From the NCBI GenBank assembly GCA_025965935.1, contig JAOPVZ010000072.1, positions 1-41,536 of the forward strand: a stretch of 41,536 nt of DNA. Reading direction: 5' to 3'. Shown here one piece after another: positions 1,959-25,152 of this stretch; positions within the stretch are counted from its first letter, which is position 1, and the number at the start of each line of letters is the position of its first letter. The notes below the pieces were generated by a model that worked only from the letters and a program-made list of their open reading frames with translations, was not told where the DNA came from and made no database searches. A program made the position numbers and the translations under genes. This stretch comes from Frankiales bacterium. Lineage in GTDB: Bacteria; Actinomycetota; Actinomycetes; Mycobacteriales; SCTD01.

Positions 1959-3533
1959 GTGCCGACCACGCTGTACCGCCGGGGCCGGGTGCGCAGCCCC
2001 GCGGACCCGTTCGCCACCGCGCTGATGACCGACGGCCCCGAGATCGTGTGGGTCGGCCAAGAGGGTGCGGCGGCCGCCCTCAGCCCCGATCGCACCGTCG
2101 ACCTGGAGGACGCCTGGCTCGCACCGGCGTTCGTCGACGCCCACGTCCACGCGACCAGCACCGGGCTGGCGCTGACCGGCCTGGACCTCACCGGCACCAC
2201 CTCCCTGGCCCAGGCCCTGCGACTGCTGGCGGACCACTGCCGCCGCGTTCGCGGGGGAGTCGTGCTCGGGACCGGCTGGGACGAGACGCGGTGGCCGGAG
2301 CGCCGACCGCCGACGGCGGCAGAGCTCGACCGCGCGTCCTTCGGCGGTGTCGTGTACCTCAGCCGCACCGACGTCCACTCGGCAGTTGCCAGCAGCGCGC
2401 TGCTGGCAACGTGTCCCGAGGCCCGCGCCTTGCCGGGCTGGGCGGGGGACGGGCTGGTCCGGCAGCAGGCGCACCACCTGGTACGGCGATCGGCACAGGA
2501 GTCCGTCACGCCGACGCAGCGCCGGGCCGCCCAGCGTGCCGCGCTCGACCGGGCCGCCGCGCTCGGGATCGCCTGCGTCCACGAGTGCGGCGGACCGGAC
2601 ATCAGCGGCGAGGACGACTTCACCGCGCTGCTGGCCCTCGAGCACACCGTCGAGCGGATCGGCTACTGGGGCGAGCTGGGCGCCGTGGACAAGGCGCGCG
2701 CACTCGGTGCCGTCGGACCCGGCGGCGACCTGTTCGTCGACGGGGCGCTCGGCAGCCGCACGGCTTGCCTGCACGAGGACTACCTCGACGGCGAGGGACG
2801 CGGCCACGCCTACCTCGACGCGGACCAGGTGCGCGACCACGTGGTCGCCTGCACCCGGGCCGCGCTCCAGGCCGGCTTCCACGCGATCGGCGACGAGGCC
2901 CTCGACCGGGTCGTCCGCGGGCTCCGGGCAGCAGCGGACGTCGTCGGCCCGGCCGAGGTGCGGGCCGCCCGCCACCGCGTCGAGCACGCCGAGATGCTCT
3001 CCGCCGACCAGCTGGCGGTCCTGGCCGACCTCGGTGTCGTAGCCAGCGTGCAGCCCGTCTTCGACGCTCGCTGGGGCGGCCCGGACGGCATGTACGCCCA
3101 ACGGCTGGGGTGGGAGCGGGCGCGGGCGATGAACCCGTTCGCAGCGATGGCCGCCGCAGGAGTGGCGCTGGCGCTCGGCTCGGACAGCCCGGTCACGTCC
3201 CTCGACCCGTGGGGGACGGTGCGGGCAGCCGTCCGGCACCGCACACCCGGCTCCGGGCTGTCGGCTCGGGCGGCCTTCAGCGCCCACACCCGGGGGGGCT
3301 GGCGCGCCGCGCGCCGCGACGCCGAGGGCGAGCTGGTTCCCGGTTCGCCGGCCACCTTCGCCGTCTGGGAGGTGCCGCACGAGCTGGTGGTCCAGGCGCC
3401 TGCGGACGCGGTCGCAGGCTGGTCCACCGACGCGCGCTCCGGCGTCTCCGGCCTGCCGGACCTCGACGCGCCCGACCCGGTCTGCCGGCTGACGGTCGTC
3501 GCCGGTCGCGAGGCCACGACCAGCGGCGGATGA
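1959..3533 (+). CDS. Amidohydrolase family protein (YtcJ-like, amidohydrolase 3)
   Basis: APAFVDAHVHATSTGL, FHAIGDEALDRV, RHRVEHAEM, LALGSDSPVTSLDPWGTVRAAV motifs. Confidence 0.85.
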   Translation: MPTTLYRRGRVRSPADPFATALMTDGPEIVWVGQEGAAAALSPDRTVDLEDAWLAPAFVDAHVHATSTGLALTGLDLTGTTSLAQALRLLADHCRRVRGGVVLGTGWDETRWPERRPPTAAELDRASFGGVVYLSRTDVHSAVASSALLATCPEARALPGWAGDGLVRQQAHHLVRRSAQESVTPTQRRAAQRAALDRAAALGIACVHECGGPDISGEDDFTALLALEHTVERIGYWGELGAVDKARALGAVGPGGDLFVDGALGSRTACLHEDYLDGEGRGHAYLDADQVRDHVVACTRAALQAGFHAIGDEALDRVVRGLRAAADVVGPAEVRAARHRVEHAEMLSADQLAVLADLGVVASVQPVFDARWGGPDGMYAQRLGWERARAMNPFAAMAAAGVALALGSDSPVTSLDPWGTVRAAVRHRTPGSGLSARAAFSAHTRGGWRAARRDAEGELVPGSPATFAVWEVPHELVVQAPADAVAGWSTDARSGVSGLPDLDAPDPVCRLTVVAGREATTSGG

Positions 3534-3577
3534 CCGGCCGACAAGGGGGTCGTCTAGGGCCGAATGGAGCAATCGGA

Positions 3578-3594
3578 GGTCACGTCACGTGACC
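3578..3594. promoter_or_regulatory. Perfect inverted repeat GGTCACGT-C-ACGTGACC (candidate operator)
   Basis: Read directly; intergenic upstream of lnt. Confidence 0.5.
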
Positions 3595-3622
3595 GGATGG
3601 TCGCGTTCGGCAGGACGCGCCG

Positions 3623-3643
3623 CAAGGTGTTGACAACACCTTG
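3623..3643. promoter_or_regulatory. Perfect palindrome CAAGGTGTT-GAC-AACACCTTG overlapping a TTGACA -35 hexamer (candidate operator/promoter)
   Basis: 9-bp perfect arms; TTGACA at 3630-3635, possible -10 near 3653-3660. Confidence 0.55.
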
Positions 3644-3976
3644 GGACCCGTCGGTATCTTCGCCCCGCTAGTCAGGGGCAACCCGCTCACGCCCGGTCGT
3701 CCTGAGGCTCCAGCTGCGGACCCGCAAGCCCGGATGTCCAGCCGTAGCAGGGGATTCGGGGCTCCGGAGGTCTCTGGGGGACGGTGGCGGGTCCAGGGGG
3801 GTTTCACCAGCACCGCGAACGACCCGGGCACAGGCTCGGTGGGCCAGTAGACAACAGCACGAAGGCGCGCTCCACGCGTCGGCGGGTTGGTCCGAAGGCC
3901 CACCGAGCCTTCGCTCGTTCGGGCGCCCCCAGCCGGCCTCAGGTCTCGCGCCGCGCGTCTCACTAGTGTCTGAGCA

Positions 3977-5422
3977 GTGAAGGCCCGCCTCGTCGTCCCC
4001 ACGGTCTTCGCGGCCGTGTCGGGGCTCCTGCTCAACCTGGCCTTCCCGCCCCACGACCTGTGGTGGTTGGCTCCAGTGGCCGTGGGTCTGCTGACCAACA
4101 CCCTGCGCGGCCGGACCCTGAGGCAGGGCGCGCTGCTCGGCTGGGTGCACGGCCTGGTGTTCTTCGGCGTGATGCTCGTCTGGACGGGCACGATCGCCGG
4201 CTCGCTGGCCTGGTTCGCGCTGACCCTGCTCGAGTCGCTGTTCACGCTGCTGCTGGGCATCGCTCTCACCGCAGTCCTGCGACTTCCGGCGTGGCCGCTG
4301 TGGGCCGCGACCGTGTGGGTCGGGGAAGAGGCGCTGCGCGACCGGCTGCCGTTCGGCGGGTTCCCGTGGGGGCGACTGGCGTTCAGCCAGGGCCACACCC
4401 CGCTCACGCCGCTGGCATCCTGGGGAGGTGCTCCGCTGGTGACCCTCGGGGTGGCAGCGCTGGGAGCGCTCCTGGTTCGCAGCCCGGGTCGGGCAGTGCT
4501 GCTCGGGCCGGCCCTGGTGGTGCTGGCGGTCGCTACCCCGGTCCCCACGGGTGGACAGCCGCTCTCGGTGGGCGTCGTCCAGGGCAACGTGCCGCGGGTC
4601 GGACTGGAGCGCGACGACCAGGTCTCGCAGGTCCTCGCCAACCACGTGCAGGCGACCCACCAGCTCGCCGCCGACGTCCGGGCTGGTCGGATGCCCGCCC
4701 CGCAGGTCGTCATCTGGCCGGAGAACGCCAGCGACGTTGACCCGTACACCGACGTGCAGGCCAGGGCCGACATCCAGGCCGCGGTCGATGACGTGGGCGT
4801 GCCGGTGCTGGTCGGTGCCGTGACCGACGGCCCCGGGCGGTTCGTGAGCAACCGCGGCATCGTGTGGAACCCCGTCACGGGCGCCGGGGCGTCGTACGTG
4901 AAGCGGCACCCGGTCCCCTTCGGGGAGTACATCCCGTACCGGTCCTTGATCCGCAAGGTGACCAGCAAGGTCGATCTCGTGCCGAACGACTTCGCACGCG
5001 GAACCCGGCCGGGCGTGCTGCAGCTGGGTCCGGTGCGGCTGGCCGACGTCATCTGCTTCGAGGTGGCCTACGACGGGGTGGTGCGTGACGCCGTGCGCGG
5101 AGGCGGCAGGCTGTTGGTCGTGCAGACCAACAACGCGACCTTCGGTCGCAGCGGCGAGACCTCCCAGCAGCTCGCCATGAGCCGCCTCCGGGCCGTGGAG
5201 CTGGGCCGCTCGGTCATCGTCGCGGCGACCAGCGGGGAGTCCGCCGTGATCGCTCCCGACGGAACGCTGCTCCACCACAGCAAGCTGTTCACACGCGACA
5301 TCACCGTGCAGCGGGTCCCGCTCCGGTCAGGTACCACCGTCGCTTCGCGCCTCGGCGCGTGGCCCGAGCTCGTCCTGGCACTGGTGGCCCTGGGCGCGGT
5401 GGTCACCGGGGTACGGCGATGA
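3977..5422 (+). CDS. lnt: Apolipoprotein N-acyltransferase
   Basis: Multi-TM N-terminus then nitrilase domain: VVIWPENASDVDPY, YVKRHPVPFGEYIPYRSLIRK, ADVICFEVAYDGVVRD, TNNATFGRSGETSQQLAMSRLRAVELGRSVIVAATSGESAVI. Confidence 0.95.
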   Translation: MKARLVVPTVFAAVSGLLLNLAFPPHDLWWLAPVAVGLLTNTLRGRTLRQGALLGWVHGLVFFGVMLVWTGTIAGSLAWFALTLLESLFTLLLGIALTAVLRLPAWPLWAATVWVGEEALRDRLPFGGFPWGRLAFSQGHTPLTPLASWGGAPLVTLGVAALGALLVRSPGRAVLLGPALVVLAVATPVPTGGQPLSVGVVQGNVPRVGLERDDQVSQVLANHVQATHQLAADVRAGRMPAPQVVIWPENASDVDPYTDVQARADIQAAVDDVGVPVLVGAVTDGPGRFVSNRGIVWNPVTGAGASYVKRHPVPFGEYIPYRSLIRKVTSKVDLVPNDFARGTRPGVLQLGPVRLADVICFEVAYDGVVRDAVRGGGRLLVVQTNNATFGRSGETSQQLAMSRLRAVELGRSVIVAATSGESAVIAPDGTLLHHSKLFTRDITVQRVPLRSGTTVASRLGAWPELVLALVALGAVVTGVRR

Positions 5423-6174
5423 GCGTCGGATCCGTCTTGGTGATCGTCCCCACGTACAACGAGATCGAGAACCTCGAGCTCATCGCCGGCCGGCTGCACG
5501 CCGCCGTTCCGGCCGCGAACCTGCTCGTCGTCGACGACAACAGCCCGGACGGCACCGGCCGGCTCGCCGACGAGCTGGCGGTCGCGCACGACTGGGTGCA
5601 CGTGCTGCACCGCACCGACAAGCAAGGGCTCGGGGCTGCCTACGTCGCCGGCTTCGGCTGGGCGCGGGAGCACGACTACGACGTGGTCGTCGAGATGGAC
5701 GCCGACGGGTCGCATGCCCCTGAGCAGCTGCCGCGGCTGCTGGCCGCACTCGAGAACGCGGACCTGGTCCTGGGCAGCCGGTGGGTCGATGGCGGTGAGG
5801 TCGTCAACTGGCCGAGGTCGCGTGAGCTCCTCAGCCGCGGCGGCAACCTCTGGACGCGACTGGCGCTCGGGCTGCCCCTGAAGGACGCTACCGGCGGGTA
5901 CCGGGCCTACCGCCGCACGGTGCTCGACGAGGTGCTGTCCCATGACGTCGCCAGCCAGGGCTACTGCTTCCAGGTCGACCTCGCCTGGCAGATCTGGCAG
6001 GGCGGTCACCGGGTCGTCGAGGTCCCGATCACCTTCGTCGAGCGGGAGCGTGGCGAGTCGAAGATGAGCCGCGCCATCGTCGTCGAGGCGCTGTGGCGCG
6101 TCACGATGTGGGGGATCACCAGCCGCCGCTCCCGCAAGCGGCTGCCCGCGCAGCAGCCGAGGCAGGTGAGCTGA
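5419..6174 (+). CDS. ppm1: Polyprenol monophosphomannose synthase (GT2)
   Basis: MSVGSVLVIVPTYNEIENLELIAGRL...LLVVDDNSPDGTGRLADEL...VVEMDADGSHAPEQLPRLL...GSRWVDGGEVVNWPRSRELLSRGGN; ATG overlaps the lnt stop. Confidence 0.93.
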   Translation: MSVGSVLVIVPTYNEIENLELIAGRLHAAVPAANLLVVDDNSPDGTGRLADELAVAHDWVHVLHRTDKQGLGAAYVAGFGWAREHDYDVVVEMDADGSHAPEQLPRLLAALENADLVLGSRWVDGGEVVNWPRSRELLSRGGNLWTRLALGLPLKDATGGYRAYRRTVLDEVLSHDVASQGYCFQVDLAWQIWQGGHRVVEVPITFVERERGESKMSRAIVVEALWRVTMWGITSRRSRKRLPAQQPRQVS

Positions 6175-6627
6175 GTGCCGTTGCTGCTCCTGCTGCTGTT
6201 CGTCGTCGTCCCGATCGTCGAGATCTACGTCATCGTGCAGGTCGGCGAGGCGATCGGCGTGCTCCCGACCATCGCGCTGCTCGTGGCGGACGCGGTGCTC
6301 GGCACCTGGCTGTTCCGCCGGGAGGGACGCCGGGCGTGGCAGGCGCTTCAGCAGGCGATCGGCGAGCGTCGGGTCCCGACGAAGGAGGTCACCGACGGCG
6401 CGCTGGTCGTCATCGGCGGGGCACTGATGCTGGCGCCCGGGTTCGTCACGGACGCGGTCGGACTGCTCTGCGTGCTGCCACCGAGCCGCGCGGTGCTGCG
6501 GCGGATCCTGTCAGGGTGGATCGGACGCCGGCTGCTTGGGTCGTCGCCGCCGGGTCGCCGTCGCCCGCGCCGTCCGGGAGACGGTGACGACGGTGACGTG
6601 GTCGAGGGAGAGATCGTCGACGAGTAG
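6175..6627 (+). CDS. fxsA: FxsA family membrane protein
   Basis: PLLLLLLFVVVPIVEIYVIVQVGEAIGVLPTIALLVADAVLGTWLFRREG...APGFVTDAVGLLCVLPPSR. Confidence 0.88.
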   Translation: MPLLLLLLFVVVPIVEIYVIVQVGEAIGVLPTIALLVADAVLGTWLFRREGRRAWQALQQAIGERRVPTKEVTDGALVVIGGALMLAPGFVTDAVGLLCVLPPSRAVLRRILSGWIGRRLLGSSPPGRRRPRRPGDGDDGDVVEGEIVDE

Positions 6628-6659
6628 CTGACGGGGTCAGCCCCAGGTCGGCGCGAGCG

Positions 6660-7061
6660 TCAGGCGCTCTTGCGGCGCGTCTTGCCCCGCTCTGCGGCCT
6701 GCTGGGCCTTGAGCTGCGCCTTCACGGCGCCTTGCTGCTGGTGCAGCGCCTCGAGCCGCTCGGCCAGGACCTCTTCCAGCTCGGCGATGGTGCGCCGCTC
6801 CAGGAGCATGTCCCAGTGGGTCCGGGCAGGCTTCACGGCCTTCGCCTCGGGCTGCTCGACGTCACGGCGCAGCGCCTCCGCACCGCAGACGCGGCACTCC
6901 CAGGTCGGCGGGATGTCGGCCTCAGCGGCGAACGGCACGGTCGTCTGGTGGCCGGACGCGCAGTCGTACGCGGTCAGCGCACGCGGCGCGAACTCGGTGT
7001 GGCGGTCGCTCTCGTAGCTCACCGAGCCGAGGCGACTGCCTCGCAGCACACGGTCACTCAT
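6660..7061 (-). CDS. rbpA: RNA polymerase-binding protein RbpA
   Basis: MSDRVLRGSRLGSVSYESDRHTEFAPRALTAYDCASGHQTTVPFAAEADIPPTWECRVCGAEA...KPARTHWDMLLERRTIAELEEVLAERLE. Confidence 0.96.
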   Translation of the reverse strand: MSDRVLRGSRLGSVSYESDRHTEFAPRALTAYDCASGHQTTVPFAAEADIPPTWECRVCGAEALRRDVEQPEAKAVKPARTHWDMLLERRTIAELEEVLAERLEALHQQQGAVKAQLKAQQAAERGKTRRKSA

Positions 7062-7124
7062 GAGGGCCTCCGAAACCACAGAACGTTCTTCGGCACATGA
7101 GTGCCAAGAGTCTTCACCGTCCCT

Positions 7125-7150
7125 AACGGACGGACACGAAGAAGGATTCC
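7125..7150 (-). promoter_or_regulatory. Sigma-R/SigH-type promoter GGAAT-N18-GTT upstream of rbpA
   Basis: Minus strand reads GGAAT CCTTCTTCGTGTCCGTCC GTT; the spacer is exactly 18 nt and lies ~64 nt upstream of the rbpA start. Confidence 0.8.
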
Positions 7151-7303
7151 CCCGCGGACGCCGAACCACTCGTGGCGCCTCCCGGCGTGCCGCCTTGACA
7201 GGCGGGCCGCGAAGCAGGGCGGAAAGCTCAGGTTACCGGGGGGCCGTGCCGACCTCATAGGCAACGCACACCCCTTCCAGCACGGCTGTCACAGGAGGAA
7301 CAC

Positions 7304-8302
7304 GTGTCACAGGCGAGCGCCAGGCGCCCGCACGTCGGAGTCCGGGCGCTGCTCGTCCTGCTCAGCTGCCTGGGTCTCGCGGGTACGAGCCTGGCTGCCG
7401 CGCACGGGGGAGCGGCCGCACCCGACCCCGCGGCAGCGGTCGTCGCGGCCGCGAGGACGCACCTCGGCGACACCTACACCTGGGGCGCCACGGGCCCCGA
7501 CACCTTCGACTGCTCCGGGCTGACCGACACGGTGTGGACGCAGGCTGGCGGGATCCGCCGGATGCCGCGAACCTCGGCACAGCAGCAGGCCTGGGCGGTG
7601 CCGATCCCGGCCGAGCAGGCCCTGACCGGCGACCTGGTGTTCTTCGGCGACCCGGTGACCCACGTCGGTCTCGTGACCGGACGGGTGCACGGCGCCCTCC
7701 AGATGGTCGACGCCTCGGCCTCGCGCAAGGGCGTCGTCGAGCGCGCGGTCTGGTTCACCGGCACCGTGCGCTTCGGCCGGGTCCCGCGCACCGGGATGCC
7801 CGCCGTCCGCCCCTGGACGCCACCCGCCCTTCCGGTCCCGCCGGCTGCCAAGCCTGCCCCGACGCCTGCGCCGACGCCCGCCCCCACGGCCCTTCCGCTG
7901 GTCTCACCGCGCGAGCCCGCCCTGCGCGGGAAGCAGCCGCTCGCGGGGCTGCCGAGCCGGCCGGCGCCCAGCACCGCCACCATGCAGCGCTTCGTCGCTC
8001 TGGCCCGCCAGCAGGTCGGCGTCACGACCTGGACCGACACCGCGCTCGTGACCGCCCTGTGGCAGCGCGCCGGGGGAGCCGGCTCGCCCGACAGCCGGCC
8101 CGCGATCCACAACCGCACCCACCGGGTGCTGGTTCGCAACGCCGAGGTGGGCGACCTGGTCGTCTACGCCGCCCCGGACGACCACGTGGGCATCTACGTC
8201 GGCGCCGGCTGGATGATCGACGCCTCACGGTCCCTGGGACATGTGGTCCTTCGTCCCGTCTGGGCCGGTTCCGGCGTACAGATCGTGCGTTGGAACAAGT
8301 GA
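7304..8302 (+). CDS. Secreted NlpC/P60 family protein with a second degenerate NlpC/P60-like domain
   Basis: Signal-like N-terminus; TYTWGATGPDTFDCSGLTDTVWTQAGG...LTGDLVFFGDPVTHVGLVTG; second copy ARQQVGVTTWTDTALVTALWQRAGG...VGDLVVYAAPDDHVGIYVGAGWMIDA. Confidence 0.88.
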   Translation: MSQASARRPHVGVRALLVLLSCLGLAGTSLAAAHGGAAAPDPAAAVVAAARTHLGDTYTWGATGPDTFDCSGLTDTVWTQAGGIRRMPRTSAQQQAWAVPIPAEQALTGDLVFFGDPVTHVGLVTGRVHGALQMVDASASRKGVVERAVWFTGTVRFGRVPRTGMPAVRPWTPPALPVPPAAKPAPTPAPTPAPTALPLVSPREPALRGKQPLAGLPSRPAPSTATMQRFVALARQQVGVTTWTDTALVTALWQRAGGAGSPDSRPAIHNRTHRVLVRNAEVGDLVVYAAPDDHVGIYVGAGWMIDASRSLGHVVLRPVWAGSGVQIVRWNK

Positions 8303-8405
8303 TCTACGGGATTCGCCCCACTCTGACAACAGGCTGACGCTAGAGTCCTCCGACCGTCGGCACGCCGTCATCGGCACGCCGCCACCCGGTACCGAGGAGT
8401 CCCAC

Positions 8406-10460
8406 GTGACCCGTGGTCGTCTGCTGTCCGCCCTGATCGGGACGTCGTCCCTGGTCGTGGCCGTGCTGATCGGCAGCCCGGGCGCCTCTGCAGCCGCCGC
8501 GCAGTCGTCGCTGACGGTGCCCGCGACGCCGGGCAAGACGTCGGTCGGCTGGTCCGGCACCGCGCCGTTCAACAACAACCAGGACGGCCTGGTCTACGGC
8601 CAGCTCGGCCTGGACGACCCGAAGAACTCCTGCTCCACGAGCAACCACACGCTCAACGACCAGCACACCGTGCGGGTCAGCTTCCCGCCCGGTCTCAGCA
8701 AGGGCTACGACACGCTCGTCCGGTTCAGCATCAAGTGGGCCGACACCGTCGGGGACAACGCCACCAACGACATGGCCCTCTACGTCTACGGACCCGACGG
8801 CAAGCTCGTGGCAGCCAGCGACGGCAGCCAGGCCGAGGAGGGCATCAACGTCACCGACCGCGTCGGCGGCGTCTACACGGTCCTCGTCTGCTCCTTCCAG
8901 AACCCGCCGGCGGGTACGCCGTACACGGGCTCGGCCACCGCCTACACGGTGGTGCCGGCGCACTTCCCGAGCGCCAAGGGGGTCGTCGCCCCGACCTACC
9001 GGCAGTACCAGGCTCCACCGGGCAAGTCCGACAACGCGGGTGAGCCCAGCATCGGCGCGAACTGGAAGAGCGGCAACACCCTGTTCACCTCGAACACCGA
9101 CGAGTACGTCGTGAAGTTCGATGACAAGCTGGGCACCTCGAGCTGGACGCTCGTCAACGACGACATCACCGATCCGTCGAACAAGATCAGCCTCGACCCG
9201 ATCGGCTTCACCGACCACGAGACCGGCCGCACCATCGTCAGCCAGCTGTACCTCGCGTGCAGCGCCTCGGCCTACACCGACGACGACTTCGACACGACCG
9301 CCGTCCCGGCCCAGGGCTGCGGGTCGGGCATCAACGGGTTCGACCACCAGACCTTCGGCGGCGGCAAGTTCCCGGAGGGCAAGGGGCCGCTGCTGTCGTA
9401 CCCGCACGCCGTCTACTACTGCGCGCAAGGTCAGGGGCTTGTTCTCGGCGGCGCTACCTGCGCCCGCAGCGACGACGGCGGCCTCACCTTCAACCCGCCG
9501 GTCGCGACCTGGACGACTGAGTGCTCGGGCATCCACGGCCACGTGCAGGTCAGCCCGAAGGACGGCACTGTCTACCTGCCGAACGCCAAGTGCGGCGACA
9601 AGCAGGGCATAGCGGTCTCGCGCGACGGCGGTGACACCTGGGTCGTGCGCACCATCCCGGACAGCATTGCGGGGGAGAGCGACCCCTACGTCGGGATCGG
9701 CACCGACGGCACGCTGTACGTCAGCTACAGCGACGGCACGGGCCACGCCCGCGTCGCCGTCTCCCGCGACCACGGAACCACCTGGGCGAAGAGCGTTGAT
9801 GTGGGGACGCCGCTCGGCGTGCGCAACAGCGAGTTCGCCATGGTGGTGGCCGGCGACGGCAACCGCGCCACCGTCGCGTTCCTCGGCACCACGACGCCCG
9901 GCTCCACGCAAGCAGCGTCCTTCGGCAAGAACCAGGCCGGCGACACCTTCATCGGCGCCGCCTGGCACCTCTACATGTCGACCACCTACGACCGCGGCGC
10001 CACCTGGACGACGGTTGATGCCACCCCGCACGACCCGGTCCAACGCGGCTGCATCTGGAACTCCGGCGGCAGCAACCCGTGCCGCAACCTGCTCGACTTC
10101 GATGCGGTGACCATCGACAAGGCCGGCCGGGTCATGGTCGGGTACGCCGACGGCTGCGTCGGCCCGACGATCGACCCCAAGAACAACTGCGTCCTGAGCA
10201 CGGACGTGTCCGCCAACAAGCTCGTCAACCACGGCGCGATCCTGCGTCAGCTCACCGGCAAGACGCTGTTCTCGGCCTACGACGGGACCGTGGGCAGGGT
10301 CACGGTTCCTGGCACCGGCACGCCCGGTGGCGGCACCAAGACGGGCACCGGCAACGGCGGCAACGGGCTCGCCGCGACCGGAGGTGCGCCACTGCTCGCC
10401 GCGGCCGGGACGCTCCTGCTCGGCGGCGCCGCGCTGTGGCTTCGGCGGCGCCGCGCCTGA
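8406..10460 (+). CDS. Secreted, sortase-anchored Asp-box/BNR-repeat (sialidase-fold) protein
   Basis: Signal peptide from GTG at 8406; Asp-box-like SDDGGLTF, SRDGGDTW, SRDHGTTW, YDRGATW; C-terminal LAATGG-hydrophobic-RRRR sorting signal. Confidence 0.8.
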   Translation: MTRGRLLSALIGTSSLVVAVLIGSPGASAAAAQSSLTVPATPGKTSVGWSGTAPFNNNQDGLVYGQLGLDDPKNSCSTSNHTLNDQHTVRVSFPPGLSKGYDTLVRFSIKWADTVGDNATNDMALYVYGPDGKLVAASDGSQAEEGINVTDRVGGVYTVLVCSFQNPPAGTPYTGSATAYTVVPAHFPSAKGVVAPTYRQYQAPPGKSDNAGEPSIGANWKSGNTLFTSNTDEYVVKFDDKLGTSSWTLVNDDITDPSNKISLDPIGFTDHETGRTIVSQLYLACSASAYTDDDFDTTAVPAQGCGSGINGFDHQTFGGGKFPEGKGPLLSYPHAVYYCAQGQGLVLGGATCARSDDGGLTFNPPVATWTTECSGIHGHVQVSPKDGTVYLPNAKCGDKQGIAVSRDGGDTWVVRTIPDSIAGESDPYVGIGTDGTLYVSYSDGTGHARVAVSRDHGTTWAKSVDVGTPLGVRNSEFAMVVAGDGNRATVAFLGTTTPGSTQAASFGKNQAGDTFIGAAWHLYMSTTYDRGATWTTVDATPHDPVQRGCIWNSGGSNPCRNLLDFDAVTIDKAGRVMVGYADGCVGPTIDPKNNCVLSTDVSANKLVNHGAILRQLTGKTLFSAYDGTVGRVTVPGTGTPGGGTKTGTGNGGNGLAATGGAPLLAAAGTLLLGGAALWLRRRRA

Positions 10461-10533
10461 TTGGCAGCAATCGCGCGTCAGTCAGCGTTCCTGCCGCCTG
10501 CGGCGGGGGAGCCGGGCTGCTCTGCTGTCCGCC

Positions 10534-11094: not shown

Positions 11095-11185
11095 TCGACG
11101 GAGACTCACCTCGTACCTGAGGTGCCTGGCAGCGCGCCAACTCTCCGTGGATCACGGCAGCAAAGATGGCTTCCCAGCTGCGCGC

Positions 11186-11656
11186 TCAGCCCGCGACGCG
11201 GAGCTCGAGCAGCTGCTGCGTGTGCCGCGGCACGTGGTCCGCTGCCAGGCCTCCGATCAGGCTCTCCAACGTCAGCGGCTGGTCCACAGCGACCGCCTCG
11301 TTCGAGACCAGGAGCGAGGGCACGAGCACCTGCGCGGCAGCGTCGGTGAGCCGATCGCCGACATCGCAGAGGACTTCGGTCGTCCGCCGGACGCTGTCGA
11401 TCAGCGCGGCACGGTCGGCGTGCTCCGCGACGATCCGCGCCAGGTTCCAGCGGTCGAGCGAGACCCGATTGTCGAACGTCGGCCGGGAGCCGGCCACCAC
11501 GCCGAGCGCGACGGCGGTGATCCCGGCATCGATGCTGAGCAGGTGTGCCAGCAGCTGGTCCGCGTTCCAGCCACCGTCGGCCGCCTCGCCGAGCTCAGGG
11601 GAGGCAGCGGCGTCGAGCAGCTGGTCGTAGGCGGCTTGCAGTGCTGTGGTGTCCAT
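11186..11656 (-). CDS. Maleylpyruvate isomerase-like / DinB-fold protein
   Basis: MDTTALQAAYDQLLDAAASPELGEAADGGWNADQLLAHLLSIDAGITAVALGV; WxxDQLLAH motif. Confidence 0.6.
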   Translation of the reverse strand: MDTTALQAAYDQLLDAAASPELGEAADGGWNADQLLAHLLSIDAGITAVALGVVAGSRPTFDNRVSLDRWNLARIVAEHADRAALIDSVRRTTEVLCDVGDRLTDAAAQVLVPSLLVSNEAVAVDQPLTLESLIGGLAADHVPRHTQQLLELRVAG

Positions 11657-11664
11657 GACGCGTG

Positions 11665-12003
11665 TCACTCCGGCTTTGCGCGCTGGATGGCTTCCGCGAT
11701 CCGCTTGATGCGCCGCAAGCGCGCGTCCCAGGCGGATCCCACTGAGGCGAGCTGGGCGACCGCGCGCGCAAGCTGTGCCTGGTCGACCTCGTAGCGGATC
11801 TCGCGGCCGGACGGTGTCGGATGCACGAGACCCACCCGGTCGAGGACGGCGAGATGCTTCGCGACGGCTTGCCGCGTCACCGGAAGGTGCTCGCTGAGCG
11901 CGGTCGCGGTGGGGCCCCCGCCGGCCAGCAGGAGATCGAGCACTCGTCGGCGGGTCGGGTCGCCGATCGCCGACCAGAGCTCGTCGTCGACGGCCGCGGT
12001 CAT
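11665..12003 (-). CDS. ArsR-family winged-helix transcriptional regulator
   Basis: MTAAVDDELWSAIGDPTRRRVLDLLLAGGGPTATALSEHLPVTRQAVAKHLAVLDRVGLV; start overlaps the SRPBCC stop. Confidence 0.9.
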   Translation of the reverse strand: MTAAVDDELWSAIGDPTRRRVLDLLLAGGGPTATALSEHLPVTRQAVAKHLAVLDRVGLVHPTPSGREIRYEVDQAQLARAVAQLASVGSAWDARLRRIKRIAEAIQRAKPE

Positions 12004-12467
12004 GGCGCGGTGACCAACTTCGTGAGGTACGTGCGCAGGCCGCCGGCGAAGTGGGTGTCCCAACCGACGACGTGCTCGTTGTACTGCTGCTCGAGGACGG
12101 CCGCCTCCCAGCCCCGCTCGCGGAACCCGGTCTCCGTCAGCCGCACCGTCGTCCCTTCGCCCGTCGGGACGAGCGTCATGGTCACCAGCAGCGAGTTGCC
12201 CGAGGTCGGCTGCGCATCGTCGGCATACACCCACCGGAAGGAGAAGAGCCGCGGCCGTTCCGCCTCGACGACCGTGAGCCGAGCGACATGAGCGTCTTCG
12301 CGGCACGGGTCACCCCACACCAGCTCACCCGTCGCGCCGGCCACTGGCGCCAGATCCGCCTCCGCGTTCCACCACTCGCGGATGTGCGCGGGGGTGCTGA
12401 TCACCTCGAACACCACCTCCGGCGAGGCGTCGATGTGGAACTCGCGCTCGATGATCCCGTACTCCAT
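12000..12467 (-). CDS. SRPBCC / AHSA1-like domain protein
   Basis: IEREFHIDASPEVVFEVISTPAHIREWWNAEADLAPVAGATGELVWG...VTMTLVPTGEGTTVRLTETGF. Confidence 0.9.
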   Translation of the reverse strand: MEYGIIEREFHIDASPEVVFEVISTPAHIREWWNAEADLAPVAGATGELVWGDPCREDAHVARLTVVEAERPRLFSFRWVYADDAQPTSGNSLLVTMTLVPTGEGTTVRLTETGFRERGWEAAVLEQQYNEHVVGWDTHFAGGLRTYLTKLVTAP

Positions 12468-12479
12468 GGTGGTACCTTC

Positions 12480-12496
12480 CGCAACGTTGGGTTGCG
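12480..12496. promoter_or_regulatory. Inverted repeat CGCAAC-GTTGG-GTTGCG, candidate ArsR operator
   Basis: Perfect 6-bp arms, 13 nt upstream of the SRPBCC-arsR start codon; degenerate second copy CGCAACTGATGGTTACG near 12524-12540. Confidence 0.55.
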
Positions 12497-12542
12497 AGTC
12501 AGGCTAGCCGTCGACTCCGGCATGCGCAACTGATGGTTACGG

Positions 12543-12707
12543 ATGGCCGCGCCGTCCAGGCGGTCGTTGGGACGGCAGTTCGGCTGGTTGTGGGCGGCAT
12601 ACGCGGTCAGCGCGTACGGGTCCGGGCTGGGACTCGGGGCACTTCCGCTGATCGCAGTGCTGGCGGTGCTCGTACCTGACGCCGATAATCGACATTATGT
12701 CAGATAG
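12543..12707 (+). pseudogene. Truncated MFS transporter N-terminal fragment (54 aa)
   Basis: ATG at 12543 translates to MAAPSRRSLGRQFGWLWAAYAVSAYGSGLGLGALPLIAVLAVLVPDADNRHYVR*; typical MFS N-terminus/TM1, then a stop; missing from the supplied ORF track because of its length. Confidence 0.7.
12678..12705. other. dif: dif-like XerC/XerD recombination site
   Basis: GACGCCGATAA-TCGACA-TTATGTCAGAT: 11-6-11 architecture, conserved ATAA...TTATGT core as in E. coli dif (GGTGCGCATAA TGTATA TTATGTTAAAT). Confidence 0.82.
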
Positions 12708-12786
12708 GCGCTCGGGACGGCTCCCCCGGGAACACCGGTCGAGAAGAGCGGTTGTCACGAGAAGCACCCCCTCCCAAGGAGCCGAC

Positions 12787-13161
12787 GTGACAGAGCGCAA
12801 GGTCCTGCAGCCCTCCGATGAGCACCCGATCACCGTCCGGCGCACCGGAGGGCGGGTCGTCATCCGCCGCGGCGACGCCGTCGTGGTCGACACCCGCGAC
12901 GCGCTGACCCTGCAGGAGGCCAGCTACCCGGCCGTGCAGTACGTGCCGCGCAAGGACGTCGAGCTGAGCCTCCTCGAGCGCAGCCAGCACACCACGTACT
13001 GCCCGTTCAAGGGTGACGCCGCCTACTTCAGCCTGCCGGACGTCCCGAACGCGGTCTGGAGCTACGAGGCGCCGTACCCGGCGGTCGCCGAGATCCAGGA
13101 CCACCTGGCGTTCTACCCGCAGCACGTCGACGTCGAGGTCCTCGAGGTCGACGCGGCCTGA
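12787..13161 (+). CDS. DUF427 domain-containing protein
   Basis: TERKVLQPSDEHPITVRRTGGRVVIRRGDAVVVDTRDALTLQEASYPAVQYVPRKDVELSLLERSQHTTYCPFKGDAAYFSL...NAVWSYEAPYPAVAEIQDHLAFYPQHVDVEV. Confidence 0.9.
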   Translation: MTERKVLQPSDEHPITVRRTGGRVVIRRGDAVVVDTRDALTLQEASYPAVQYVPRKDVELSLLERSQHTTYCPFKGDAAYFSLPDVPNAVWSYEAPYPAVAEIQDHLAFYPQHVDVEVLEVDAA

Positions 13162-13215
13162 GCGCTGGCGCGCCCCTGACTGCACCACGGGCCCGCGAGG
13201 TGTGAGGATGCTCTG

Positions 13216-13251
13216 ACATCCGGGGAGACATCCCGGGAGACATCCGGCGAC
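13216..13251. repeat. Three tandem 12-bp repeats ACATCCGGGGAG / ACATCCCGGGAG / ACATCCGGCGAC
   Basis: Read directly between DUF427 and the VWA gene. Confidence 0.8.
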
Positions 13252-13279
13252 ACCCACGACGACGCAGGCGAGGGATCCA

Positions 13280-15070
13280 GTGGCGCAGGGCACAAGACGA
13301 GCTCCGCTGTTCGTCGCGGGTCTCGTCGGCCTGGCCCTGATCGTCGGCGTCAAGCTGCTGACCGGAGGTGGCAGCAGCAAGGACTCCGGGCCCGCGCCAC
13401 TGACCCAGGGCTGCACGACGGTGCACCTGACGGCGTCGTCGGAGAAGGCCGCGCTGCTGACCCAGATCGCGAAGAACTGGAACGGCACCAAGGTCGACGG
13501 TCAGTGCGCCCAGGTGGCGGTCGTCAGCAAGGCCAGCGGCGGCGCCGCGGATGCGCTGGCCCGGGGCTGGGACGAGGCCGTCGACGGCCCGCGGCCCGAC
13601 GTCTGGTCCCCCGCCTCCTCCTCCTGGACGCAGCTGCTCCGGCAGAAGACGACCGCCGTCGACAAGCCCGACCTGATCGCGAGCGGCCAGCTCCCCTCGG
13701 TCGCCAACACCCCGCTCGTCATCGCGATGCCGAAGCCGATGGCAGTGGCGCTGGGCTGGCCGCGCAAGGCGCTGGGCTGGGGCGACGTCTACCGGCTCGC
13801 GCAGGACCCGAAGGGCTGGGCCAGCATCGGTCAGCCCTACGGCGCGTTCACCCTCGGCAAGACCAACCCCAACTTCTCGACCTCGGGCCTGCACGCCACC
13901 GTCGGCACCTACGTGGCGGCGACGGGCACCTCGAGCGACCTGACACTCGACAACCTCAAGGACCCGAAGGTGCAGGCGTACGCCCGCGCCGTCGAGGGCG
14001 CCGTCGTGCACTACGGCGACACCACCTTGACCTTCCTGTCGAACCTGCAGCAGGCCGACGACCGCGGGCAGGGCCTCGGCTACATCAGCGCCGTTGCCGT
14101 CGAGGAGAAGTCGGTCTGGGACTACAACCAGGGCAACCCGACAGGTGACCCCACCACGCTGGGCCGCCACCCCAAGCCGCGCATCCCGCTGGTGGCGATC
14201 TATCCCAAGGAAGGAACCCTCCTCAGCGACTCCCCCTACGCCGTACTGCAGGCTGACTGGGTGAGCGACAAGGTGCGCAAGGCGGCGCAGGCGTTCCTCA
14301 GCGAGCTGCGCGGCAGCGGCGCGCAGAAGCGGTTCGCGGCGGCGGCCTTCCGCAGCAGCAACAACCGGCCAGGAGAGCTCATCACGCAGGACAACGGGCT
14401 GCTGCCCAGTCAGCCGACCCTGGTCCTGACTCCCCCGGCGCCCAACGTCCTCGCGCGGGTCGAGGCCCTGTGGAACCAGCAGCGCAAGCCGGCCCGGGTG
14501 CTGCTGGTCATCGACACCTCCGGGTCCATGGGCGACGACGCGGGCAACGGCAGCAGCAAGCTGGACACCGCCAAGACCGCCGCGCTGCACGCACTCGACC
14601 AGTTCGGCCCCAACGACGACGTGTCGCTGTGGTCGTTCTCGTCGCGCGCCGCCGGCGACCCGGCGCCTTACCGCAAGCTGGTGCCGTTCGAGCGGATCGG
14701 TGCCAACAAGGCGCGGCTCCGCTCGGCGATCTCCGCCCTCTCCCCCAAGGGTGGGACCGCGCTCTACACGAGCGCCGGCGGCGCCTACGACGCCATGGCA
14801 AGCAGCGTCTCGGGCGACGCCATCAGCGCCGTCGTGTTCCTGACCGACGGCAAGAACGAGGACGACAACCACGACCTCGCCGGGCTGTTGCGCAAGCTCT
14901 CCCCCGAGGACACCTCGCGGTCCGTCCGGTTCTTCCCGATCGGGTACGGCCGCGATGCCGACCTCCCCACCCTGACCAAGATCGCGGAGTCGGCCCGTGG
15001 TGCGGCGTACAACGCCTCCGATCCCGCCTCGATCGACAAGGTCTTCACATCGGTCCTCTCGAACTTCTGA
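13280..15070 (+). CDS. Extracellular solute-binding plus von Willebrand factor A domain protein
   Basis: N-terminal TM/signal, periplasmic-binding-like region, C-terminal MIDAS: VLLVIDTSGSMGDDAGNGSSKLDTAKTAALHALDQF...SAVVFLTDGKNEDDNHD. Confidence 0.85.
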   Translation: MAQGTRRAPLFVAGLVGLALIVGVKLLTGGGSSKDSGPAPLTQGCTTVHLTASSEKAALLTQIAKNWNGTKVDGQCAQVAVVSKASGGAADALARGWDEAVDGPRPDVWSPASSSWTQLLRQKTTAVDKPDLIASGQLPSVANTPLVIAMPKPMAVALGWPRKALGWGDVYRLAQDPKGWASIGQPYGAFTLGKTNPNFSTSGLHATVGTYVAATGTSSDLTLDNLKDPKVQAYARAVEGAVVHYGDTTLTFLSNLQQADDRGQGLGYISAVAVEEKSVWDYNQGNPTGDPTTLGRHPKPRIPLVAIYPKEGTLLSDSPYAVLQADWVSDKVRKAAQAFLSELRGSGAQKRFAAAAFRSSNNRPGELITQDNGLLPSQPTLVLTPPAPNVLARVEALWNQQRKPARVLLVIDTSGSMGDDAGNGSSKLDTAKTAALHALDQFGPNDDVSLWSFSSRAAGDPAPYRKLVPFERIGANKARLRSAISALSPKGGTALYTSAGGAYDAMASSVSGDAISAVVFLTDGKNEDDNHDLAGLLRKLSPEDTSRSVRFFPIGYGRDADLPTLTKIAESARGAAYNASDPASIDKVFTSVLSNF

Positions 15071-15074
15071 TGCG

Positions 15075-15848
15075 ATGAGCAGGCTGCGCGACGAGCTCCG
15101 CGACCCGTGGGGGGCGCTCCTGGCCGGCATCGCCGGCGGCGTGTCCTGGGCCGCTGCTGGCGTGATCGCCGCGGGGGTACCTCCCGTCGCGCTCGGCATC
15201 GGGATCGGTGCAGCCGTGTACGGCGTGAAGGTGGCCGTCGGCGCGTTGACCGGCGGCGACCGCCCGCCGGAGCAGCCCGCGCCGGCGCGGCCGCGGTACG
15301 GGACGCCGGCCTTCGCCTGGCTCAAGCGGGCGGACGCCGCGACCCGCAGCCTGGAGGACATGGCCCGGCAGGCCGGCACCGCTACCGCCACCGATCTCGC
15401 GGTCCGGCACGCCGCCGACGAGGCGCGAAGCATCCTCAACGACATGCAGCGGCTCGGAGGCCAGTCGGCGGCGGTCATGGCAGCGATGGGTCGCGTCGAC
15501 GCGCCCGGTCTCGAGGCCGAGGCCGCCCGACTCCAGGCCGCCGCGTCCGCCTCCCCGGGTGACGCCTCGGCGCAGCAGTCCTACCAGGCCTCGCGGGACC
15601 GGCTCGCGGTCCGTGACCGGCTGCAGCAGGCCGGCCAGGCGCTCGACGGCCGGTTGCAGGCCTCCGCCCTCGGGCTCGAGGGGCTGGTGGCGCGGGTCGC
15701 CGAGCTGTCCGCGACCGCCAACGCCGTCGGCCAGCTCGACCCGACAACCCAGGACCTCGAAGACATCACGACCGAGCTCGACGGGCTGCGCGTCGGGCTG
15801 GCCGACGTCGAGCAGGTGGCGCGCAAGGCCCTCGGCGCCGCCGGCTGA
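15075..15848 (+). CDS. Hypothetical membrane/coiled-coil protein, apparently co-transcribed with the VWA protein
   Basis: MSRLRDELRDPWGALLAGIAGGVSWAAAGVIAAGVPPVALGIGIGAAVYGVKVAVGALTGGD followed by Ala-rich helices; start 5 nt after the VWA stop. Confidence 0.7.
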   Translation: MSRLRDELRDPWGALLAGIAGGVSWAAAGVIAAGVPPVALGIGIGAAVYGVKVAVGALTGGDRPPEQPAPARPRYGTPAFAWLKRADAATRSLEDMARQAGTATATDLAVRHAADEARSILNDMQRLGGQSAAVMAAMGRVDAPGLEAEAARLQAAASASPGDASAQQSYQASRDRLAVRDRLQQAGQALDGRLQASALGLEGLVARVAELSATANAVGQLDPTTQDLEDITTELDGLRVGLADVEQVARKALGAAG

Positions 15849-15885
15849 GCCCGTCGCCGCCCGCGGGTCGCCTAGGTTCTCGGAC

Positions 15886-16362
15886 GTGCGTCCGCTGGCG
15901 GTCTTCGACATCGACGGGGTGCTGGCCGACGTCCGGCACCGCGTCCACCACCTGGAAGGCAGGCGCAAGGACTGGGGCGGCTTCTTCGGCGCCGCACCGC
16001 GAGACGGCGTGCACGAGGAGGGTCGGGCCCTCGCTCTCGAGGCTGCCCACGACTGCGACCTCGCTTACGTGACCGGCCGTCCGGAGTGGTGCCGCGCCGA
16101 CACCGAGGACTGGCTGCAGGCCCACCGGTTGCCGGCAGGGCAGCTCATGATGCGGCGCAGCGGCGACCACCGGCCGGCCGCGCAGGCGAAGCTACGGCTG
16201 CTGGAGGAGCTGGCCGACGGACGGACGGTGGCGGTCGTGGTGGACGACGATCCTGACGTCTGCGACGCCTACGAGGCCGCCGGCTTCGCCGTCCTGCGCG
16301 CCACCTGGGCGCCGCGCTCGGACACCCTCCACCGCGCTCAGGAGGAGGACGGCCGCACCTGA
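15886..16362 (+). CDS. HAD-family hydrolase/phosphatase
   Basis: GTG start; VRPLAVFDIDGVLADVRHRVHHLEG...CDLAYVTGRPEWCRADTEDWLQAH...TVAVVVDDDPDVCDAYEAAGF. Confidence 0.8.
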   Translation: MRPLAVFDIDGVLADVRHRVHHLEGRRKDWGGFFGAAPRDGVHEEGRALALEAAHDCDLAYVTGRPEWCRADTEDWLQAHRLPAGQLMMRRSGDHRPAAQAKLRLLEELADGRTVAVVVDDDPDVCDAYEAAGFAVLRATWAPRSDTLHRAQEEDGRT

Positions 16363-17438
16363 GCCAGCGCCGCGAGAACCGGCTCGGCCTTGGCGTGGGC
16401 CTCCCGCACCTCACTCTCAGGGTCGCTCCCCCAGGTGATGCCGCCACCCGCCCACAGGTGGACCTGCCCGTCCGCCGCCGCGATCGTCCTGATGCTCAGC
16501 CCGAGGTCGACACCGCCAGGCCAGAGGAAGCCCAGCGCCCCCATGCTGACGCCCCGACCCACCGGCTCCAGGTCCGCCAGCAGCCGGCAGGCGGCATGCT
16601 TCGGGGCGCCGGTGACCGAGCCGCCCGGCACCACGGCCCGCAGCACGTCCAGCACGGTCACGCCGTCCGCGAGCCGGCCGGCGACCGTCGAGGACGCGTG
16701 CCACAGCCCGGCCCAGTCGCTCGTCGCGTACAGCTCCTCCACCTCGACCGACCCCGCCCGGGTCACCCGCGCCAGGTCGTTGCGCTCGAGATCGACGATC
16801 ATGACGTGCTCCGCCCGGTCCTTGTCGCTGTGCAGGAGCGCGTCCCGTTCGCGGGCGGTGCCCTTGATCGGCACCGTGCTGATCCGGTCGCCGTCCACGC
16901 GGACGAGCTGCTCGGGCGACGCGCTGGCCACGACCCAGTCCTCACCGCCGAGCCAACCGGCGTACCGGGCTCCCGGCAGTCCTGCGACCGCCGCCGCCAA
17001 GGCCAGCGGGTCGCCGCGGAACGGTGCCTGCCGATGACCGACGACGTTCGCCTGGTAGACGTCGCCCCGGGCGATCGCCCGCCGGACAACCTCGACCGCG
17101 GCTGCGTGCTCGCTGTCGGTCCAGCTGGTGACCCACTCCCCCACGTGGGCGCCGCCGACCGGCGGGGCGTCGGCCGGTCCCCGGTGGTAGGCGACCGCGA
17201 CGACCTCGGGCACCGCGACCGGGCTCGGGCGGCCGCGCGGCACCGCACCCAGCTGCGCGCAGCCCACCGCACCGAGCAGCAGGGCCACCGCGGTGTCCCC
17301 CCGCTGCGTCGCCGGCTCACCGGCGAGCCCGTGCGAGCCGAGGAACCCCTCGAGCTCGGCCGGGTCCTGGCTCTCGAGGCGCTCGAGCTCGATGAGCCCG
17401 GTGCGCCATGCCGCGGGTCGACCGGGGGGCGTGTGCAC
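16338..17438 (-). CDS. pabB: Aminodeoxychorismate synthase component I / chorismate-binding enzyme
   Basis: YQANVVGHRQAPF...STVPIKGTARERD...EHVMIVDLERNDLARVTRAGSVEV...LDVLRAVVPGGSVTGAPKHAACRLLADLEPVGRGVSMGALGF...AGGGITWGSDPESEV. Confidence 0.9.
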   Translation of the reverse strand: MHTPPGRPAAWRTGLIELERLESQDPAELEGFLGSHGLAGEPATQRGDTAVALLLGAVGCAQLGAVPRGRPSPVAVPEVVAVAYHRGPADAPPVGGAHVGEWVTSWTDSEHAAAVEVVRRAIARGDVYQANVVGHRQAPFRGDPLALAAAVAGLPGARYAGWLGGEDWVVASASPEQLVRVDGDRISTVPIKGTARERDALLHSDKDRAEHVMIVDLERNDLARVTRAGSVEVEELYATSDWAGLWHASSTVAGRLADGVTVLDVLRAVVPGGSVTGAPKHAACRLLADLEPVGRGVSMGALGFLWPGGVDLGLSIRTIAAADGQVHLWAGGGITWGSDPESEVREAHAKAEPVLAALAQVRPSSS

Positions 17439-17618
17439 AGCGCGTTACCCGAACTGCCTGACGGTCGTTGCCTTCAGTGGGATCCTGATACAGCCGACAA
17501 CTTCAGCAACGGGGTTGTGACAACGGACACACCAAGTAGGAACGAACACCCCGGCCACGAAGGCAACAACGCGAGAGCGACCCAGCCGGCACCACCGAGA
17601 CGAAGAAGACGAAGCAAG

Positions 17619-17816
17619 ATGAAGTGCCAGCACTACCCCCACTGCCCGCCGGCCGACGCCGCTGACCACGACGCGGCGCGCGTCGTGAGCGCGCACCCCG
17701 AGCAGGGCTGGAACCTCCTGTGCAACGGCGTCGTCGTCTTCGACGACACCGGTGAGCTCCTCCCCGACCGCCAGGTGGTGGCGCCGCACCGGCCGCTGTG
17801 CCGGCGCGTGGCCTGA
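17619..17816 (+). CDS. DUF5999 family small protein
   Basis: MKCQHYPHCPPADAADHDAARVVSAHPEQGWNLLCNGVVVFDDTGELLPDRQVVAPHRPLCRRVA; resembles conserved small actinobacterial proteins. Confidence 0.75.
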   Translation: MKCQHYPHCPPADAADHDAARVVSAHPEQGWNLLCNGVVVFDDTGELLPDRQVVAPHRPLCRRVA

Positions 17817-17872
17817 CCGCTTCGCCCCGTTCCGCCCTGTGAGTCGGGCCGGCCCCGCGGCCGCGCCCGTGC

Positions 17873-20701
<2,829 letters not shown>

Positions 20702-20728
20702 GGGGGGCTCCTGAGGGCATGCTGACGC

Positions 20729-20955
20729 GGACCCTCCCCCTCTGTCATGGAGCCTGAGAGCTTCACCGCCCGCTGCCACTGCCATGACAACGATCGGCTT
20801 GCACCGTCGGCGAGGTCCCTGCCGCCACTGCCATGACAGCGCGGGCCCTGCTTTCCAGAGTCGCCCACCCCGAGCGGTCCGCTGGCCTGAGAGGTTGTCG
20901 GGGAGAGAATGCTCCTTCGGCGCCCGGCGCTGGCTGCGCAGGGACTCTCCCGCAG
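20729..20955 (-). ncRNA. Tandem glycine riboswitch upstream of gcvP
   Basis: Minus strand: GGGAGAGTCCC...CGCCGAAGGAGCA...CCTCTCAGGCC...CGACTCTGGAAAGCAGGG (aptamer 1); CTCGCCGACGGTGCAAGCC...GTGAAGCTCTCAGGCTCCATGACAGAGGGGGAGG (aptamer 2). Confidence 0.92.
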
Positions 20956-21096
20956 GGGTGATCGGCTGTCAGGAGCGTAACAGCGCAGGCAGCGCGCGAC
21001 ACCTGCCAACACGGGCGATCTCGGAGTGGACGTCTCGGTGCACGTCGCAGGGCACGTCTCCACCGTCACACCTGGCCGGCGTGCCCGGCGGTGCTG

Positions 21097-21828
21097 TCAG
21101 GCGCTGGTGCGGCGCTTGCGGCGGCTGGCCAGCTCGTCACCGGGGTGCCCGTGCTCGGCGGCAGCCACCGCGTCCGCCGTGTCGCGGTGCGCCCGCTCAC
21201 CCGGGAGCGAGGCGAGGGTGCCCTCGACGTCGCGGACCTGCCGGCCGACCGCGATCGCGAAGACCGCCTGGCCGCCCTGCAGCAGGTCGACCATCTCGTC
21301 GGTACTGGTGCACTCGTAGACCGTGGTGCCGTCACTGATGAGGGTGACCTGCGCGAGGTCGTCCACACCGCGGTGGCGCAGCGTGCCGATCGCCGTGCGG
21401 ATGTTGGGCAGCGAGACCCCGGCGTCGAGCAGCTTCTTGACGACCTTGAGGACGAGGATGTCGCGGAACGCGTAGAGCCGCTGGGTGCCCGAGCCGGACG
21501 CCTCCCGGACGGTGGGCTCCACCAGACCGGTGCGAGCCCAGTAGTCCAGCTGCCGGTAGGTGATCCCCGCGGCGCTGCACGCCGTCGGTCCCCGGTAGCC
21601 GATGTCCTCGACGTGCCCACCCGGGCGCTCCTCGGCCGGCAGGTCGTCGAACAGGGTTCCCTGGAGAGTCACGGGGTGGCTGCCGCTCGTGGTGTCAGGC
21701 TCGTGCGCGTCCACCAGGTGCTCCGCTCTCGTCGTACCGGCCCGTGCTGCGGGAGTCGTGCTCTCGGGGACGCTAGGAACCCTCGACCTCAGGGTCAACG
21801 ACCTCGGCGGCGCGTCCCAAGCCTCCAC
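21097..21828 (-). CDS. MerR-family transcriptional regulator
   Basis: GYRGPTACSAAGITYRQLDYWARTGLVEPTVREASGSGTQRLYAFRDILVLKVVKKLLDAGVSLPNIRTAIGTL; start site uncertain. Confidence 0.88.
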   Translation of the reverse strand: MEAWDAPPRSLTLRSRVPSVPESTTPAARAGTTRAEHLVDAHEPDTTSGSHPVTLQGTLFDDLPAEERPGGHVEDIGYRGPTACSAAGITYRQLDYWARTGLVEPTVREASGSGTQRLYAFRDILVLKVVKKLLDAGVSLPNIRTAIGTLRHRGVDDLAQVTLISDGTTVYECTSTDEMVDLLQGGQAVFAIAVGRQVRDVEGTLASLPGERAHRDTADAVAAAEHGHPGDELASRRKRRTSA

Positions 21829-21847
21829 CTCAGGTCGAGGGTGAGCT

Positions 21848-22342
21848 TCAGGCGTCCTTCTCGAAGTCCTCAGGAGAGATCGTGTCGAGGAACTCGCGGA
21901 AGCGCTCGACCTCGTCCTCCTGCTCGTCCGGGATGGCGATGCCGGCCTCGGCGAGCACAGCCTCCTCGCCCCGGATGACCGTGCCGGTCCGCATCGCCAG
22001 GGCGATGGCGTCGCTCGGCCGGGCGCTCACCGTCACGCCGCCGTCGAACGCAAGCTCGGCGTAGAAGACCCCGTCCCGCAGATCGCTGATCGTCACCGAC
22101 TGCAGGGGCCGATCGAGAGCCTCGAGCAGGTCCTTCAGGAGGTCGTGCGTCATCGGCCGCTGGGTGATCACGCCCTGCTGCGCGAACGCGATCGCGGTAG
22201 CTTCGACGGCGCCGATCCAGATCGGCAGGTAGCGGTCGCCGCCGGCTTCCTTCAGCAGCACGATCGGCTGCTGGCTGGGGAGCTCGACCCGGACCCCGAC
22301 CACGGTCAACTCGGTCGTGGCAGTGCCGTCGGGCTCGCTCAT
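21848..22342 (-). CDS. Bifunctional nuclease domain-containing protein (DUF151)
   Basis: LTVVGVRVELPSQQPIVLLKEAGGDRYLPIWIGAVEATAIAFAQQGVITQRPMTHDLLKDLLEAL...VSARPSDAIALAMRTG. Confidence 0.93.
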   Translation of the reverse strand: MSEPDGTATTELTVVGVRVELPSQQPIVLLKEAGGDRYLPIWIGAVEATAIAFAQQGVITQRPMTHDLLKDLLEALDRPLQSVTISDLRDGVFYAELAFDGGVTVSARPSDAIALAMRTGTVIRGEEAVLAEAGIAIPDEQEDEVERFREFLDTISPEDFEKDA

Positions 22343-22400
22343 GCCCTGACCTTACTCCGCGTGCCGAGGATCGTCAGCGGCCACAGCGGGTCATGGCCGA

Positions 22401-22460
22401 CGGGTGGGATCAGCGGTGGGATCAGCGGTGGGTCAGGGGTGGGTCAGGGGTGGATCAGCG
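22401..22460. repeat. Short tandem repeats GTGGGATCAGCG x2 then GTGGGTCAGGG x2
   Basis: Read directly; overlaps the ftsR stop codon. Confidence 0.8.
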
Positions 22461-23207
22461 ACGCAGGCCGGGTGCGAGGCCGGCCTTGACGAGGGTCGCG
22501 TGCAGCTTCACCGACAGCGCCGCCAGCTCGCGCGCGACCTCGTCTGCCCGAGCCCGGGCCTCCGGGTTGCGCTGCCGGACGAGCGGAGTCACGACCTGCT
22601 CGACGAGGCCGATCTCGCGCTCCGCTGCGGACTTGAACGGCCGCAGGTGCCGAGCCTCGATCCCGAAGCGGGCCATCTCGGCCACCGTCTTGGCGACCAC
22701 CAGCGCGTCACCGTCGTAGTGGCTGCTGCCCGAGCGCGGGCTCACCAGCCCGAACTGCTCGAGCTGCTCGAGCTGCGCCGCCTCGAGACCGGCGGCGTCC
22801 AGCAGCTCGCGACGCGAGAGCCGCACCTCGCTGGCGTCAGGGCGGAACGCCTCCGGACCCGGCATCCCCTCGGCGGCGACCAGCGCCCGGGGCACCTTGG
22901 GGCCGGTGCTGCCTGTCGACGGCGGCTCGAGGCCGCGGTCGATCGCGTCGAGGTGCTCCTTGATCACCCGGAGCGGCAGGTAGTGGTCCCGCTGGGCGGA
23001 CAGCACGTACCGGAGCCGGCTCACGTCCTCCCGGGAGAACTTGCGATAACCGGAGGAGGTCCGCTCCGGCTTGATGAGCCCCTCGTCCTCGAGGAACCGG
23101 ATCTTGGAGATCGTCACGTCGGGGTACTCCGGGCGGAGCTGGCCCAGGACCTCGCCGATGCTCATGAACGCCCGGGAGGGCATGCCCGCAGTGTGGGGAA
23201 CGGCCAC
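22455..23207 (-). CDS. ftsR: MerR-family cell-division regulator FtsR
   Basis: FMSIGEVLGQLRPEYPDVTISKIRFLEDEGLIKPERTSSGYRKFSREDVSRLRYVLSAQRDHYLPLRVIKEHLD. Confidence 0.9.
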   Translation of the reverse strand: MAVPHTAGMPSRAFMSIGEVLGQLRPEYPDVTISKIRFLEDEGLIKPERTSSGYRKFSREDVSRLRYVLSAQRDHYLPLRVIKEHLDAIDRGLEPPSTGSTGPKVPRALVAAEGMPGPEAFRPDASEVRLSRRELLDAAGLEAAQLEQLEQFGLVSPRSGSSHYDGDALVVAKTVAEMARFGIEARHLRPFKSAAEREIGLVEQVVTPLVRQRNPEARARADEVARELAALSVKLHATLVKAGLAPGLRR

Positions 23208-23208
23208 C

Positions 23209-25151: not shown

Positions 25152-25152
25152 G

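Follow-up and report, generated by a model that had tools for sequence, protein, structure and literature searches.

Does the short AT-rich sequence at 12678-12705 act as the dif site of this actinobacterial chromosome, and does it mark the place where replication ends? An earlier note had proposed both, naming the sequence a candidate site for the XerC/XerD recombinases. It lies in a window (the whole stretch of DNA analysed, 41,536 nucleotides) taken from a draft genome of 315 contigs and 3.07 Mb, estimated to be 85% complete. The 28-mer GACGCCGATAATCGACATTATGTCAGAT is present exactly at this position on the + strand, so that the suggested 11-6-11 layout, GACGCCGATAA-TCGACA-TTATGTCAGAT, is borne out. 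It is flanked by two divergent genes: AHSA1/SRPBCC on the - strand (12000-12467), and DUF427 on the + strand, which probably starts with the GTG at 12787. The description of an AT-rich site in GC-rich surroundings is also correct, G+C content being 12/28 (43%) in the 28-mer versus about 70-71% in the neighbourhood. The site and its parts are as follows.

12678..12705, + strand: dif site GACGCCGATAATCGACATTATGTCAGAT, 28 bp; single match in its own draft genome, standing out as a conserved island when 131 loci are aligned, and located opposite dnaA in relatives.
12678..12688, + strand: XerC-side 11-bp arm GACGCCGATAA; positions 4-11 nearly invariant in the dif alignment, arm putatively assigned by analogy with E. 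coli dif.
12689..12694, + strand: central 6-bp region TCGACA, presumed place of strand exchange from the layout; much variation among relatives only at positions 13-14.
12695..12705, + strand: XerD-side 11-bp arm TTATGTCAGAT; positions 19-25 nearly invariant, arm putatively assigned from E. coli.

The 28-mer matches the dif consensus of the phylum, including its 11-6-11 arms. E. coli dif has the same layout, with inner bases ATAA/TTATGT. These inner bases are common to both sites, whereas the outer arms and the centre of the sequence studied here follow the actinobacterial consensus. Compared with the predicted dif site of Frankia alni, CACGCCGATAATGCACATTATGTCAAGT (Hendrickson and Lawrence 2007, Kono et al. 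2011; PMC3025954), 23 of the 28 bases are identical, and the two sites share the 28-bp 11-6-11 organization, the core GCCGATAAT-NN-ACATTATGTCA, the single copy and the location at the terminus. Position 1, positions 26-27 and the two variable bases of the centre account for the five differences, and each of them also varies among relatives. The site is a standard one, new to this genome but of a known kind.

The match is far beyond chance. Allowing up to 3 mismatches, one match to the 28-mer was found in the window, compared to none in 100 shuffles, and one in the 3.07-Mb draft genome, where the reversed pattern used as a control gave none. With a weight matrix built from 50 relatives, the window being excluded, the score was 47.1 bits for the site, -8.5 for the runner-up within the window, and 11.9 bits for the highest-scoring of 60 third-order Markov sequences. 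Several copies of the 28-mer, or a better match elsewhere, had been named at the outset as results that would speak against a dif site; neither was found in the organism's own draft genome (315 contigs, about 85% complete).

We then turn to its conservation among 101 relatives drawn from its genus, family and order. The dif core CGATAATNNACATTATGTC, with at most one mismatch, was detected in 91 of them, almost always exactly once, and the reversed pattern gave no match. Of the 10 remaining relatives, 6 have a candidate once 2-3 mismatches are allowed, and no fewer than 4 of these are convincing: those of G018, G020, G056, G064 and G096 are dif-like in look, that of G086 is not. Beyond these genomes, the exact 22-base core was present in more than 100 named actinobacterial records among the matches listed, with Modestobacter, Nocardia, Frankia, Klenkia, Rhodococcus, Terrabacter and Phycicoccus among the carriers (loci from this exact scan share the core by selection). 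When 131 dif loci were aligned, positions 4-25 were nearly invariant except for the two central bases, and almost no conservation was left in the flanks, so that the site stands out as a 28-bp island. Three order-level relatives (G051, G062 and G070) each contain a second dif-like core, at one mismatch, which may stem from a second replicon, an element or chance.

Since the genome under study is a 315-contig draft, distance to the origin was measured in relatives assembled as large or single contigs. In G039 dif is separated from dnaA by 0.477 of the chromosome, in G093 by 0.492, and in six other relatives with large contigs (G040, G026, G041, G034, G097 and G030) by about 0.47-0.53, as judged from match coordinates. 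Throughout the organism's own family, dif occupies a single gene junction, where lnt-ppm1-fxsA-rbpA faces pabB-gcvP-ftsR-garA across the site. The earlier note had also argued from gene content that the region belongs to the terminus side of the chromosome. This argument holds, since in two family members gcvP and der are separated from dif by 5-53 kb, and in 7 of 8 order-level relatives with large contigs (all but G097) they are no further from it than a quarter of the genome, hence in the terminus half. GC skew was computed for G039 and G093, on 20 samples per genome and on the contiguous ±200 kb around dif; the signal was noisy and too weak to place the terminus, as G039 lacked a clear extremum at dif and G093 had only a weak trend.

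A sharper signal came from oligonucleotides of skewed orientation. Octamers polarised toward dif were searched in ±200 kb of G039 and G093, which yielded CGGGGGAG (32:0 and 78:4, respectively) together with overlapping octamers. Their core, GGGGGAG, was next examined in the window, whose sequence had not contributed to motif discovery. All 18 copies point toward dif and none away from it:

2253, 7406, 8072, 9671, 10505 (span 2253..10511), + strand: left-arm AIMS/KOPS-like GGGGGAG; 5 of 5 copies toward dif, 0 opposite.
12721, 14230, 14430, 14740, 14899, 16426, 17136, 20734, 27089, 29058, 34556, 34804, 40987 (span 12721..40993), - strand: right-arm AIMS/KOPS-like GGGGGAG; 13 of 13 copies toward dif, 0 opposite.

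The strand switch is thus bracketed between 10505 and 12721, and GGGGGAG is the most polarised of the 3504 heptamers of the window. At nine loci of the family it ranked first of 7320 heptamers (103:3 toward dif); genome-wide samples of G039, G093 and G040 showed one polarity per arm. Gene direction alone is not sufficient to account for this polarity, because the five right-hand copies at 12721-14899, all on the - strand, are located in or just upstream of + strand genes. The E. coli KOPS GGGNAGGG is polarised in G093, and is distributed over both arms of G039 (21 forward, 24 reverse) with no arm preference. AIMS are defined in PMC5993296, where FtsK-orienting sequences form one class of them, and the AIMS octamers described in corynebacteria are G(A/T/C)GGGGGA and (T/C)GGGGGAG (PMC3022926, PMC3219685). 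GGGGGAG, found here as polarised toward dif without prior input, is the core of these octamers and shows no evident difference from them; it is therefore known biology, seen here in Frankiales-type and other actinobacterial genomes. By extension, the FtsK of this organism would read GGGGGAG.

Taken together, the antipodal position of the orthologous sites relative to dnaA, the organism's own GGGGGAG switch in the window and the junction conserved in the family indicate that the site marks the replication terminus, opposite oriC, as had been suggested. The terminus of a fragmented genome from an uncultured actinobacterium can thereby be fixed by sequence alone, and the GGGGGAG switch (403 copies toward and 6 away from dif at 108 other actinobacterial dif loci) places it far more sharply than GC skew does in these GC-rich genomes. 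The proposal of a chromosomal dif site likewise stands: the 28-mer is single in its own genome, kept in relatives, antipodal to dnaA there, and located at the GGGGGAG switch. We estimate at about 97% the probability that this actinobacterium uses the 28-mer as its chromosomal dif site, dimer resolution by FtsK and XerCD being its presumed function.

The left side of the site differs from that of close relatives. When the window was compared by blastn to G004, G005 and G006, homology stopped at 11106 and started again at dif, and in these three genomes dif comes almost directly after a DinB-like gene. Encoded in the segment that intervenes here are a DinB-like protein, paired ArsR and AHSA1 proteins, and an MFS transporter reduced to its first ~42 codons; the MFS homology breaks off about 10 bp or less from dif:

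11107..12677, no strand assigned: lineage-specific segment of about 1.57 kb, abutting dif; missing in all six genomes of the genus used for comparison.
12543..12671, + strand: truncated MFS-transporter N-terminus; the gene is complete in G024 as an open frame of 446 aa, with 86% identity along 37 aa.

Such a segment, abutting the left edge of dif and carrying a truncated gene, is what might be expected if the 28-mer were not native, and were instead the attachment site, or a dif copy, brought by a dif-integrating element (an IMEX-type phage or genomic island). However, the draft genome contains only one dif site, no integrase or phage gene adjoins it, and the same gene junction is present in genus and family, exactly at the AIMS polarity switch. 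Moreover, the left border of the segment (10900-11400) has no second dif-like sequence, the best score there being -24 versus 47 for dif, and an IMEX-type insertion is therefore not supported. This origin is largely refuted, and we regard it as very improbable. A deletion or an illegitimate insertion beside the native dif site is enough to explain the segment. It is improbable that the segment was left behind by an insertion or deletion that was Xer-mediated or dif-targeted, with dif as an entry or breakage point for foreign genes. A linkage of the MFS fragment to AHSA1/ArsR in other genomes was looked for, and none was seen in the four loci read. ArsR-AHSA1 pairs related to that at 11665-12467 were observed within about 5 kb of dif in a Humibacillus and two Pseudonocardiales MAGs (L100, L101 and L108), a proximity that may be due to chance, the pair being common.

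A chance or regulatory intergenic palindrome, such as an operator for DUF427 or AHSA1, would fit the partial inverted repeat inside the 28-mer and its position 82 bp upstream of the likely DUF427 start, but hardly any credit is left to it, as the score is far beyond chance and the 28-mer is conserved without its neighbouring genes, being kept between DinB-like and DUF427 genes in G006, DinB-like and vWA genes in G005, and NlpC and vWA genes in G001.

To return to the native dif site, its predicted partners are encoded in the same genome. The window itself contains one of them at its end:

40859..41530, - strand: xerD, cut by the contig end; PRK00283 at 305 bits (cut-off 279), Phage_integrase domain, adjoining parA/scpA.

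Its assignment as XerD is supported by a higher score with TIGR02225 (XerD, 276 bits, the best equivalog) than with TIGR02224 (XerC, 253 bits). A XerC of 312 aa is encoded on contig C112; its score of 304 bits falls short of the strict NCBIfam cut-off (335), but the gene has dprA and whiG-like genes as its neighbours. An FtsK with a gamma domain is encoded on contig C15. The third Phage_integrase gene of the genome, on contig C40, codes for an unrelated 465-aa integrase. By analogy with the E. coli system, binding of XerC and XerD, strand exchange and activation by FtsK would all take place at this site, and the arms are assigned on the same basis. FtsK would be guided along each chromosome arm by the polar GGGGGAG-type sequences, so that the terminus would be brought to the septum. 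Once XerD had been activated by the gamma domain of FtsK, the two recombinases would swap strands at either edge of the central 6 bp, TCGACA, converting a chromosome dimer into two monomers.

Finally, the actinobacterial dif core was also encountered on 9 of the 2.9 million viral contigs of IMG/VR (L286-L294), which could be dif-using phages or host DNA at the edges of proviruses.
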